Of a stretch of 64,000 bases of DNA, positions 23,571 to 28,573 are shown one piece after another. The notes under the pieces were generated by a model. It had not been told where the DNA came from. It did no database searches and saw only the letters and a list, made by a program, of their open reading frames with translations. The translations under genes were made by a program, and so were the position numbers. Within the stretch, counting starts at the first letter, position 1; each line of letters begins with the position of its first letter. This DNA comes from an uncultured Flavobacteriales bacterium (GTDB lineage: Bacteria; Bacteroidota; Bacteroidia; Flavobacteriales_D; Sanyastnellaceae), in NCBI GenBank assembly GCA_943787435.1, contig CALSMK010000001.1:1-64000 (forward strand), written 5' to 3'.

Positions 23571-26500
23571 ATGCGCCACCCCATGATTTCACATCCGCGT
23601 TCCTCCATTTTGGCGGCGACAGTCCTCCTTTCGTTGACCACTTCCCCCACCGCCCTGGCCCAGTCCTTTGACCTCAATGGTGGCGTCATTTCTGAATCTG
23701 TCAACCGCCATGACCCCTCGGTGTTCGATCGGGCCATGGACCACTTCAATCACGCGCAATACACAGCGGCATTGGAAGGGTTTGACACCTATGTCCAAAC
23801 CCCTTTGTTGGCCGACGCACCCTCTGCAGAGCGAGAGGAGCCCCGTCGACTGGAGGCGGAGTACTGTGCTGCGCTTTGTGCGGTCTATCTGTACCACAAG
23901 GATGCAGTCTGGCGCATCGACCAGTTCATTGACCAACACCCGGAATCAACTTGGGTGCCCAAACTGCGCTGGGAATTGGGCAACTACCAATACCGCAGGA
24001 AAAAGTGGACCAAGGCCATAGACGCATTCAATGGACTCACGCCCAGACACTTAAGCAAAGGACTCAGGACAGAGTTCCACTTCAAGCGGGGCCATTCCCT
24101 TTTTGAAAAATCTGAATTGAGCGAGGCCCGCAGCGACCTGATGAAGGTCGCCGATGACCCCTCAGCTTCTCCAGCCTTTTTGGAAGCCGCACGGTATTAT
24201 TTGGCACACATCGCCTACGCCGAAGACCGATTGACCACGGCATTGACGGCTTTTGAAGCGTTGCTTGTGGTCGACGCCTTCCGCAATGCGGTCCCTGTTT
24301 ACATCGCACAAATCCTGTACGACCTGGGGCGAAACGAAGAACTGATTGAGCGTGCCCCAGAATGGTTGGGCCAAAATCACGAACTGCGGAATGCCGACGC
24401 CTTGGAATTGCACAAACTCTTGGGGTCGGCCCTGTTCTACGAAAGCCGATGCGCCGAAGCAGAACCCCATTTGGAAGCCGCATGGAAGGCCGCCGATGGC
24501 CAACAGCGCACCCCCGAGTTCAGTTACATCGTGGGCCTGTGCCGCCTCAACAATGGCCATCCATCCACCGCCATCACGGCCTTGATGCGGTCCACAGGAG
24601 GCAAAGACCAGCTCGATCAGTACGCCACACATGCCATGGGGCGGGCCTATCTGGAACTGAACGAAAAGCCCAAAGCCCAAACGGCATTTGAAACGGCGGC
24701 TTCTTTGGATCACGATTTGGAACTGCGGGAAGACGCTTTGTTCAACCAAGCCAAACTGGCCTTCGAAACAGACTTCAACCCATTCAACGACGCCATTGCA
24801 GCCTTTGAGCAATACCTGGAAGAGTACCCAAACAGCCCACGCAGAGATGAAGCCTACGGATTTCTGCTCGACGTCTACCTCACCACCCGAAACCACGTTC
24901 GGGCTTTGGATGCCCTCGACCGCATTCAACGCAAGTCCTCCCCGCGAAAAGCAGGCCTACCAGAAGCTCGCCTTTAACCATGCCGTCGACCTGTTTCGCT
25001 CAGGGAAAATCGAAGAGTCCCGATCCGTTTTTTAGCCGAAGCCGAACCTTTCCAGAAGACGCCACCCTCGCCGCCGAAAGTCACTTCTGGCAAGGAGAGG
25101 TGGCCGTCAAAGCTGGAAGTGACGGACCTGCCTTGAGTCATTACCGCGCCTTCCTCAATGCCCCAGGCGCGTTCAACTCTGAATTGTACAATGAAGGCGA
25201 GTACGGCGCAGCCTATGCCCTCTTCAAGCAACGCAAATACAGAGACGCACTGATTGGGTTCCGCAAGTATGCCGACGCCACCCAAGGACAAACCGAGGCA
25301 GGACACCGCGCAGACGCGCTGCTCCGCATTGGCGACTGCTTTTACATCGACAAGGACTACCCCCGGGCTGTAGATGCCTATTCACAGAGCTTAACCGATG
25401 GGACCACACAACAGCAATACGCCAGTTATCAGCGGGCCCGCTGCAAGGGCCTTGACGGAGACCTAGATGGTGCCTTGGCGGGAATGAACGAATTGCTCAG
25501 CGCCTTCCCCACCACCACATTCAAAGGAGACGCCTTGACCTCCATTGGCAAGACCCAAATCGAACGCAATCAAATGGACGATGCCCGTCGGGCTTTTGAG
25601 CAAATACGCCAAGAGCTGCCCGGCAGCGCCTATGCCAAGAGGGCATTGGTGGACTTGGCTTTGATTGCCATCAAGCAAAATCGGGGACGACGACGCCTTG
25701 ACTTTGTGGGGCCAGATTTCCTCCAAATACCCTGAAGACGATGTCACCAAGGACGCCTTCCTTTTGGTGGAACCCTTGCTCATAGAACGCGGTCAATTGG
25801 ACAACCTGCCAGAAGTGGTGGGACTTTCCGATGATGACATTGCAGAAAAAACCTATGCTGCCGCCCAAGAGTTGGCCTTGTCGGGACAATGCAGCGCAGC
25901 CATTCCCAAGCTCACCCAATTCTTGACCAACCACCCCCAAAGCATTCGCGTGCTGGCCGCCCGTTTCCATTTGGGGCAATGTCAATTTGAAGAAGGGGCC
26001 CTGGACGAAGCGCTCAATGCTTTGGAACAAGTGGTCAATGCGCCTTTGAGCGATTACCATGAATCGGCCTTGGTTTTGGTCGCCACCCTGAGGTACAACC
26101 GCAATGAGTGGACCGAGGCTTTGGCCCACTATCAGCACTTGGAGCAGGTATCCGAGCTCAAACGACATGTTTTGGAAGCCCGAATTGGCATCATGCGTTG
26201 CAGCAGGCAGCTGGGAGATGGAGACACCGTGCTGGCTTACGTCGACCCCATTTTGGCCGATGCAGAAACGCCTGAAGACATCCGCCTGGCTGCCCGCTAC
26301 AACCGCGCATTGTTGTTGCTTGAACGCGACGCCGACCAAGCCTTGTCCGATTTGCAATGGCTGGCCGAGGACGGGCCCCACGCCGAGGAAGCGAGCCATC
26401 ATCTGGCCAGCATTCAACTGAACAACGGCGATGCCCCCGGAGCGCAAGCTGCCATTTTCGCACAACTCAATCGATTTGGCGGTGGGTCTGAATGGGCACA

Positions 26501-26720
26501 TCGCAGTTTCTTCCTCCTCGCCGATGCCTATCTCGCTCAAGAAGACTTGTTTCAAGCCAGGACCACCATTGAGCAACTTCAGGCCAACGTGGACGTGCCG
26601 TGGGTTCAAGATTCTTGTCTGGACTACTTGGACAGACTGACTCAATTGGAGAACCCGCCATCCCCTCCCGATTCGACTGAATCTGGAACGGAGATCACCC
26701 CTCAATCCGATAACAAATGA
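23571..26720 (+). CDS. Large exported tetratricopeptide repeat protein (three frameshifts)
   Basis: Reconstructed as one protein of about 1,048 residues built from TPR helices throughout, exported by a signal peptide (cleavage probably after TALAQ). Frame 1 runs to a C4 run at 24940-24943 (one extra C), frame 2 to a T6 run at 25028-25033 (one extra T), frame 3 to an A4 run at 25677-25680 (one extra A). Each removal joins TPR-like sequence smoothly (for example KSS|REKQAYQKLAFNHA). The start could be ATG 23571 or 23583. Its stop overlaps the start of the following barrel gene (ATGA), so a periplasmic scaffold working with that outer-membrane protein is inferred. No catalytic motif was seen. 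Confidence 0.8.
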
Positions 26721-28573
26721 TCATGGGCAACCTCACCTCATGTGCAGCGCGTCGCGCAGCCACCTTGTCTTTGGTTTTGAGCAGCATGGCCTCTGTGGGC
26801 TCACACGCTCAAGACAGCCTTCAAGTGACCTTCGTGGGAGATCGCGAATTGGAACTTCGCGAAGTCACCAAGCCCATATCGGTCCCCGAAAGAATGGACT
26901 TGGGCATTGAAAAACCTACCATTTCATACACCCCCGTGGTGAAAGCAGTTTCACCCAAAACAGAAACCGAAGACATTCAACCTGTGGCCGTGAAAATGGA
27001 CGCGCCTCTCCCGCGTCTTTATGCGGGGTACGCCAAGCTGGGTTTTGGCATCTATACCTCCCCCCTTGTGGACCTTCATTTGGGAGAAACGCAGAGCCGA
27101 AACGGGGCATGGGGTATCCACCTCGTTCACCGCAGCTCTGCAGGATCTACTGGCCAAGTGGACAGTTTGGGCACAGATGAAGGTTGGTCATACAATGCCC
27201 TAAAAGGGTACTACCGCAAGTTCATTGACCGGAGCAGCTTGACCCTGGATGGTGGATTGGACCGGACGGCTTGGGGCTTGCATGGCTTGGACCTTTCCAG
27301 CGACAACGACCTTGGGTTCATCGCCCCCGAAAAAAGACAGACCTACGGAACACTTCACGCCCGCGCCAGACTCCAAAACCACGAGCGAGACAGCACCAAG
27401 GTTCACCGCGACATCGAATTGGCCGTGTCGCGACTCACACCTGGAGATGCACCCCTGCCCCCCGGATTTCCAGTGCCCGAAATCCAAACCTCTCCCATGC
27501 GAGAGAACCTCATCACCTTGCAAGGCCGCTTCCAGAGCTGGAAAGACGACGCTCAATATGCATTGGACCTGGAAGGTCACATGATGGGCACCTCACTCCA
27601 CGGCGTGGGTGATTCTACGCTGAGCAACGTCCAACGCTCCAGCGCCCTCATTGGTGCTGTCCCCAGCATCACCAAGGAAAAAGGTGCTTACAGAATTCGC
27701 GTGGGCGCTGGGCTTTGGGTGGATGCCCGCGGGCGGCAGGCTTTCCACTTTTACCCCACAGCCGAGGTTCGCTTTCGCTTGCTCGACGATGTCTTTGTCC
27801 CTTACGGAGGCCTGGGTGGTGGCATGCAACGCAACGCCTTGCACGACTTGGTTCAAGAGAACCCATGGTTTGATGCCAGTTACCACGCCAACGCTGATGC
27901 CTCGCGAGGAACTTTGCAAAACACCAACCGCGCCCTTGAATTGTATGGAGGCGTGCGCGGCAAGTTCACCCGCGATCTGGCCTTCAATGCACAAGCCCGC
28001 ACCACCCGGTACCGGGACTTTGGTTTTTGGGTCAATGAGGCCGGTGTGGACAGCGCCGGTCAGCGGTTCAGCTTGGCCTTTGATTCTTTGACCATCGCCA
28101 GCGTGATTGGCGAAGCCATGTGGCGTGGCCAAGGCGCTTTAGAACTCAATGCCCGTGCAGAATTTCACACCTACGGCACCGGCAACCAGCCCTATGCATG
28201 GTACCAGCCACGAACGCGATTCACCGCATCCGGAAGGTGGAACTTGGAAGAGTTGCTGTTCTTGAATGTGGGCCTTGAACTTGTGGGTGCCCGTTATGCA
28301 CCGTCTCGTGTTCCCTTCGGAGAAATTGCCAGCGGAGATAACCCCGTGCAAGAAGCCGCCGAAAATGTAGGCGCTGTATTTGGTGGAACAGACGACATCT
28401 ACGCCCGCAAACTGCCGGCATACACGGCGCTGGACTTGGGCATCGAATACCGCTATAACGGCCGTTTGGCTTTGGGTTTAGACGCCAAAGGCCCCCTTGG
28501 AAATACCCAAATGTTCAACGGGTACAACGCCCAAAACATGCGTGTGATGATGTGGGCGGGCTATCGCTTCTGA
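26717..28573 (+). CDS. Outer-membrane beta-barrel protein partnered with the TPR protein
   Basis: A 618-residue protein with a signal peptide (ending GSHAQ near residue 32), a proline-rich periplasmic N-terminal segment (about 35-95), then many alternating amphipathic strands rich in aromatic residues, and the terminal AGYRF typical of barrels recognised by BamA. No TonB-box or plug domain was identified, so it is not a normal TonB-dependent receptor although database names may say so. ATG 26717 overlaps the stop of the TPR gene by four bases, so the two are translated together. Function unknown; possibly an envelope assembly or export unit. Confidence 0.75.

Follow-up and report, generated by a model that had tools for sequence, protein, structure and literature searches.

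A large tetratricopeptide repeat protein and a plug-less outer-membrane barrel of Bacteroidota as possible parts of a Tol-like trans-envelope machine

The Tol-Pal system of Escherichia coli is joined by CpoB, a tetratricopeptide repeat (TPR) regulator that binds TolA (PMC7391070). For the Bacteroidetes, the accessible text of a 2025 survey of force transducers reports no identifiable tol-pal loci and proposes PorE instead; PorE and CHU_0125, both of TPR-PD40-OmpA layout, are described as CpoB-TolB-Pal fusions, with PorE as the proposed outer-membrane tether (PMC12204202). The same text describes vWA force transducers, a family reported from Bacteroidetes among other phyla, with tolQ-like, tolR-like and uncharacterised TPR genes in one cluster, while the Agl/Glt machinery of Myxococcus, as described in the accessible text on it, combines a TolQR-like motor, the TonB-like GltG, several TPR proteins and predicted outer-membrane proteins (PMC3169522). 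Here we analyse a gene pair in a 64,000-nucleotide stretch of DNA (the window) from an uncultured Flavobacteriales bacterium (assembly GCA_943787435.1, contig CALSMK010000001.1, positions 1 to 64,000 of the forward strand), in which the gene for a large TPR protein (23565 to 26720) overlaps the gene for an outer-membrane barrel protein (26717 to 28573). We propose that the two may be the periplasmic and outer-membrane parts of a proton-driven, Tol-like trans-envelope machine, a reading that we regard as about evenly poised between right and wrong.

The likeness to E. coli Tol-Pal with CpoB is seen in some families, where a TolQ-TolR-TolA-like motor and a large TPR protein are encoded in one row, and in the window, where a PD40-OmpA protein of TolB-Pal-like layout is encoded directly upstream. 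In contrast to the E. coli system, the TPR protein is a solenoid of some 1,000 residues rather than three repeats, the outer-membrane part is an integral barrel, the row mostly includes a gene for a protein with HU-type and SPOR domains (HU/SPOR), and separate tolB and pal genes were not recognised beside the pair. PorE and CHU_0125 share PD40 and OmpA domains with the protein upstream of the pair, which scores below the cut-offs for both; the PorE section of the survey names no motor locus and makes no mention of a TPR-barrel pair. In the vWA system, compared by its description in the accessible text, the transducer is instead a vWA protein, the TPR-containing cluster belongs to the PVC (Planctomycetes-Verrucomicrobia-Chlamydiae) group and no outer-membrane barrel is named. 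The Agl/Glt proteins are different ones, and the accessible text on that machinery states that it is not conserved in Bacteroidetes (PMC3169522). TonB-dependent transporters such as BtuB have the same barrel fold as residues 101-618 of our protein, which differs from them in showing some 70 disordered residues where the plug would be, in having a fixed TPR partner, and in usually giving a single full-length match per class genome. A literature search that left aside supplements and most subscription papers found neither the pair nor the operon described, and the words folC, SPOR and Cytophaga are absent from the main text of the survey (PMC12204202).

The TPR-barrel pair is core in its class. 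Our phylum sample held 395 genomes, 95 of them from the same class as the window genome; both genes were found in 93 of the 95 and neither in the other two, G326 and G451 (G denotes genomes, L loci, C contigs and f families). The barrel was likewise found in 56 of 60 close relatives and in 41 of 41 good genomes. Linkage was followed in 61 class regions, in 60 of which the TPR gene lies upstream of the barrel gene on the same strand, directly in 55 and with one small gene between in five; the barrel frame begins no more than 100 nucleotides past the TPR end in 53 of these 60. Within the order of the window genome, represented by 69 named loci, the same arrangement is found in 67. Both genes are present and unlinked in G110, and in G412, a genome of the same genus from outside the 61 regions, they lie on separate contigs. 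The sequence-only reading had supposed a dedicated envelope assembly or export pair, and named unlinked or not co-conserved homologues, or a recognisable plug, as findings that would speak against it. The pair proved to be linked, co-present and without a plug, and dedicated is therefore a fair description; of assembly or export we found no evidence. Named pair-bearing examples include Cryomorpha ignava, Brumimicrobium species, Bacteroides finegoldii (WP_237924153.1, WP_237924155.1) and Parabacteroides distasonis (WP_005859277.1, WP_008772738.1), and in the latter two species the genes are annotated, in the manner of the Prokaryotic Genome Annotation Pipeline, as 'tetratricopeptide repeat protein' and 'TonB-dependent receptor'. 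Where a small gene intervenes, in some f16 and f17 genomes, it encodes 157-163 residues (L152, L155, L156) or 287 residues (L161, L162). Two PLSDB 'plasmids', NZ_OY725917.1 of B. finegoldii (L247) and NZ_OY725770.1 of P. distasonis (L248), also carry the pair; as they carry topA and argS as well, they are probably pieces of chromosome.

The association of the pair with a TolQ-TolR-TolA/TonB motor is well supported. When neighbouring genes were clustered without preselection, the clusters ranking highest after the pair itself were HU/SPOR, FolC and a TonB/TolA-like protein, each in four families, followed by ABC/FtsE-type, TolQ, glycosyltransferase-like, SDR and trmB-like clusters in three and TolR in two. 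The order TPR-barrel-(HU/SPOR)-TolQ-TolR-TolA-FolC is kept in 8/8 f14, 3/3 f20 and 7/7 f19 regions, the f19 rows being without an HU/SPOR match and having FolC in six of seven; f21 has HU/SPOR in all three regions with TolA and FolC in two, and f15 has HU/SPOR in nine of 12, the motor being absent from its regions. Outside the class, 10 of 14 regions have TolQ and TolR downstream of the barrel, eight of these ten without an adjoining TPR gene. Pfam searches of the neighbours returned HU-CCDC81 domains with SPOR, together with the MotA/ExbB and ExbD families, and the TonB_C domain of the transducer was over its cut-off in one of five proteins tested, below it in two and not found in two. A representative motor protein scored 79 bits against TolQ and 42 and 32 bits against ExbB models; the names TolQ, TolR and TolA, in preference to ExbB, ExbD and TonB, reflect such relative scores below the cut-offs. 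In f17 (12 of 13 loci) and in the own order (34 of the 69 loci), the gene upstream and in divergent orientation is of FtsE type. In the window genome itself the motor genes stand elsewhere, as a single TolQ-TolR-TolA-FolC row on C20, and C8 encodes an HU/SPOR protein with all three domains over cut-off. Taken together, the TolQ-TolR-TolA/TonB, HU/SPOR and divergent FtsE-type neighbours point to an energised trans-envelope machine. In a further family, f35 (L191-L194, L196, L207-L209), the barrel stands beside TolQ, TolR and TolA and the TPR gene lies elsewhere; most of these loci also have an HU/SPOR match.

An alternative is that the TPR protein and the barrel form a unit and that the motor genes adjoin them by chance or through ancient co-location, with no functional link. 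The neighbourhood also contains FolC, holA and, named by eye, a trmB-like gene, which have no obvious relation to it, and in several families the motor stands apart from the pair; both facts suit such an explanation. Against it, the TPR gene, the barrel and the Tol-type TolQ are jointly absent from G326 and G451: at E 1e-45, the threshold used within the class, the Tol-type TolQ profile matches 93/93 pair-bearing class genomes and neither of these two, where the only TolQ relative is a distant one (99 and 106 bits). A survey of the ExbD family in nine class genomes agrees with this, in that the seven pair-bearing genomes have extra TolR-sized copies besides larger ones, whereas G326 and G451 have only two adjacent copies, a tandem set; the small copies are adjoined by a Tol-type TolQ scoring 209-278 bits in six genomes, and by the linked one in G106. 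The pattern extends to the other classes (about 298 genomes, being the 395 minus class, family and order genomes), in which, at a TolQ threshold of E 1e-65 and with relatedness ignored, TPR and strong TolQ were found together in 130 genomes, TolQ only in 3 and neither in about 126. We therefore consider mere co-location a distinctly improbable explanation.

Several observations weigh against the Tol-like machine that we favour. The other-class co-occurrence table takes no account of relatedness, and a further 39 genomes in those classes have the TPR gene without a strong TolQ; within the class, nine TolQ matches would miss the 1e-65 threshold, eight of them in genus g45 and one in G388 (2.0e-55). 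G326 and G451, both complete genomes, still encode HU/SPOR-type proteins, and HU/SPOR therefore does not strictly track the pair. The motor genes are unlinked to the pair in the window genome and in the f15, f16, f17, f18, f22 and f23 regions. One representative each of the motor proteins and the transducer fell under the NCBIfam cut-offs for TolQ, TolR and TolA, the TolR-like one scoring higher against ExbD (39 bits) than against TolR (33 bits), and the two FtsE-type proteins tested, at 233 and 243 bits, lie below the cut-off of 265. The sampling also calls for caution: the 61 class regions, drawn from the 93 pair-bearing genomes and covering ten families, were chosen by us; of 19 other-class regions fetched, two were 100-base stretches of no use and 14 of the remaining 17 had a barrel match, one of them (L200, 23 bits) probably spurious; and the profiles behind the HU/SPOR, motor, FolC and FtsE-type counts were built from matches inside the same regions. 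At L199, L202 and L203 a like gene order surrounds a barrel-like gene that the barrel profile missed. The two own-order loci without a TPR gene, L093 and L099, begin inside the barrel at a contig edge, both genes are missing from the incomplete genomes G014, G015 and G048, and in G023 the TPR gene is cut by a contig end and a barrel match is absent. Finally, in the accessible text on Cytophaga hutchinsonii, deletion of the annotated tolA (chu_0135) left growth in PY6 at wild-type level and filter paper was still digested (PMC5891637); this gene, whose locus number is close to that of chu_0125, may or may not be the TolA of the TPR-barrel row. Deletion of CHU_0125 itself impairs the outer membrane according to the same text, and the mutant showed no division defect (PMC5891637), which argues against a role carried over unchanged from E. 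coli.

The barrel gene encodes 618 residues on the forward strand (26717 to 28573), as read from its open frame and a structure model. Its start overlaps the TPR stop in an ATGA at 26717 to 26720, just as the sequence-only reading had it, and this overlap suggests that the two genes are translationally coupled. A helix at residues 7-24 of the model was taken by eye as a signal peptide. Residues 25-103 are without secondary structure, and the low-confidence stretch at about residues 33-100 (26813 to 27016) stands in the plug's place; residues 101-618 (27017 to 28570) form the TonB-receptor-type barrel domain, placed by the model and by structure alignment. The model, made from 62 sequences, has a predicted local distance difference test score (pLDDT) of 81.3 and 23 strands of at least seven residues by DSSP, and TonB-receptor-type barrels have 22 strands. 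Its best structure match is BtuB (Z 20.6, root-mean-square deviation 3.3, 403 aligned residues), residues 101-618 lying on BtuB 135-594; Foldseek returned the same protein at 6.2e-18, and the C-terminal sequence matches ferric enterobactin receptors at E 1.6e-4. No family in Pfam or NCBIfam, the plug (PF07715) included, matched the protein at E 0.01. Since the alignment begins at BtuB 135, past the BtuB plug, and residues 25-103 are unstructured, the modelled protein is a TonB-dependent transporter fold without a plug, and the plug-less barrel proposed from the letters alone survives comparison with solved structures.

This fold raises the question of whether the barrel could be an import or export conduit energised by TonB, an open channel for a solute, lipid or polymer whose gating would fall to the TPR protein and the TonB-like transducer. 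The fold is that of a TonB-dependent transporter, some families have a TonB/TolA-like gene and an ExbB/TolQ motor in linkage with the pair, and the mature protein begins DSLQVT, with stretches such as EEIVVT in relatives, which by eye resemble a possible TonB box. However, the plug, the element on which TonB acts, is absent, and its loss makes classical TonB-driven import unlikely. Furthermore, no substrate-specific gene was evident by eye among the neighbour clusters present in at least eight loci, and near-universal occurrence in the class is unlike that of nutrient receptors. We judge a conduit unlikely on this balance.

Under the Tol-like reading, which takes all the parts as a single machine and is the simplest on offer, an inner-membrane proton motor of TolQ and TolR would drive the TolA/TonB-like transducer, which would engage the unfolded N terminus of the barrel, the TPR scaffold, or both. 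The TPR protein may bridge to wall or septal factors, with the SPOR partner marking the division site, and the outer membrane, anchored through a former TonB receptor, would be held or constricted with energy; in the window species the motor would be supplied from genes elsewhere in the genome. From the SPOR domain, the Tol-type motor and the neighbour of FtsE type, it may act at the division site or stabilise the outer membrane, as Tol-Pal does (PMC7391070). Outer-membrane stability or constriction seems the most likely task of such a machine.

The TPR gene of the window is read in three open pieces on the forward strand: a first piece of about 460 residues (23565 to 24977), a middle piece (24980 to 25735) and a last piece with the natural stop (25665 to 26720). 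Each has an open frame and Pfam TPR matches, to generic TPR models, and each was placed by alignment to relatives. The relatives align in frames 3, 1, 2 and 3, three frame changes in all, and own-order homologues form a single open frame of 1,002-1,119 codons in 57 of the 69 loci (1,032 in L073), figures that bear out the earlier estimate of about 1,048 residues after repair of three indels. The other 12 loci are mostly cut by contig ends, and in L079, L094 and L096 the TPR gene is apparently broken too. Because L031, a relative with 95% DNA identity over 4,794 columns, is open over the 840 residues available, the breaks in the window gene are most likely sequence errors of an incomplete genome (78.5% complete). 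Other genes of the window also appear frame-broken between 17574 and 20170, namely a hutI-like gene (17574-18287, 18284-18955) and a chorismate-synthase-like gene (18795-19805 and later pieces), both named by eye, and fit with base-level errors in the assembly. A second, shorter TPR homologue with an 875-residue frame lies at G061:C1:1170331-1172628 (E 2.7e-138).

The intact homologue from L032 was modelled as a purely helical protein with about 50 helices (pLDDT 86.5, predicted template-modelling score 0.46). A search of solved structures for the TPR protein found only general TPR proteins and no specific relative, and the template-modelling score by query length was at most 0.23 among the Foldseek matches listed; the low scores allow only a TPR-like solenoid to be claimed. 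Two intact homologues exceed the YbgF model TIGR02795 (154 and 187 bits, cut-off 90) through summed repeats, no single stretch passing, the one from L045 is also over the BamD model (96 bits, cut-off 81), and the two score 56 and 49 bits against CpoB (NF008068, cut-off 383); the broken pieces of the window gene fall below the CpoB and YbgF cut-offs. Identity with PorW/SprE, the TPR protein of Type IX secretion, was rejected, two intact homologues scoring 63 and 60 bits against NF052312 (cut-off 250), as was Porphyromonas gingivalis PG1028 as a homologue, which is an OmpA-domain protein.

Two further explanations turn on this architecture. The pair could be a Bacteroidota-specific outer-membrane biogenesis factor, acting in the assembly of surface lipoproteins or barrel proteins. 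Its core conservation in the class and its combination of TPR and barrel would suit that function, and the route by which surface lipoproteins cross the membrane in the phylum is, to our knowledge, open. The neighbours, however, belong to motor and wall functions and not to assembly. Moreover, two 2025 papers on the β-barrel assembly machinery (BAM) name, in their accessible text, BamA, D, G, H, M, P and BamG-K rather than TPR or barrel proteins of this kind, and neither main text contains 'TPR' or 'tetratricopeptide'. A biogenesis function is accordingly improbable, and identity with a BAM subunit, compared by description only, was set aside. The second possibility is an AlgK-AlgE- or PelB-type polysaccharide exporter, in which a TPR scaffold likewise serves a barrel. 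In its favour, 12 loci of three groups have a nearby gene that by eye looks glycosyltransferase-like. Yet the exporter barrel is smaller than the TonB-receptor-type barrel with 23 strands of at least seven residues modelled here, and no polysaccharide synthase, of the sort linked to AlgK-AlgE, PelB or BcsC-type exporters, was recognised by eye among the neighbour clusters in at least eight loci, leaving an exporter very improbable.

Two other genes flank the pair in the window. Directly upstream, the PD40-OmpA gene (21432 to 23483, forward strand, assigned by its Pfam domains) encodes 683 residues; scanned as an over-long frame of 817 residues, it scored 163 bits against the CHU_0125 model (cut-off 620) and 145 bits against PorE (cut-off 600). 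Thirteen of the 69 own-order loci have such a gene upstream of the pair (12 of the 54 with at least 4.8 kb upstream, plus L033), and the regions of other families and classes gave a single weak match, downstream at L169 (58 bits). With its TolB-Pal-like layout, the protein is a possible further part of the system. On the other side, gyrB (28677 to 30650, forward strand, open frame and family match) begins 103 bases after the barrel stop. This adjacency, noted in the sequence-only reading, is real in the window and does not generalise: gyrB is within the sequence available in 36 of the 69 own-order loci (25 of the 49 with at least 3 kb past the barrel) and in only 3 of the 61 other class regions. 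On these counts it was rejected as a functional partner and is treated as a local neighbour.

A bolder and more speculative extension, to which we lend less credence than to the Tol-like machine itself, is that the row represents the Tol system so far missing from the Bacteroidota and goes back to an operon ancestral to the phylum. Here a plug-less former TonB receptor would be the outer-membrane anchor pulled by a proton-driven TolA/TonB-like protein, a 1,000-residue TPR solenoid would span the periplasm, and the HU and SPOR protein would couple the whole to the nucleoid and the septal wall, such that one machine would join chromosome, wall and outer membrane. Bacteroidota are a main part of the human gut flora, and the gene row offers a concrete candidate for such a machine in which motor, transducer, periplasmic scaffold and outer-membrane part can each be named and tested. 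The routine annotation of a core gene as a 'TonB-dependent receptor' is corrected, and the comparison suggests that the barrel of a TonB receptor has been repurposed into something other than a classical transporter.

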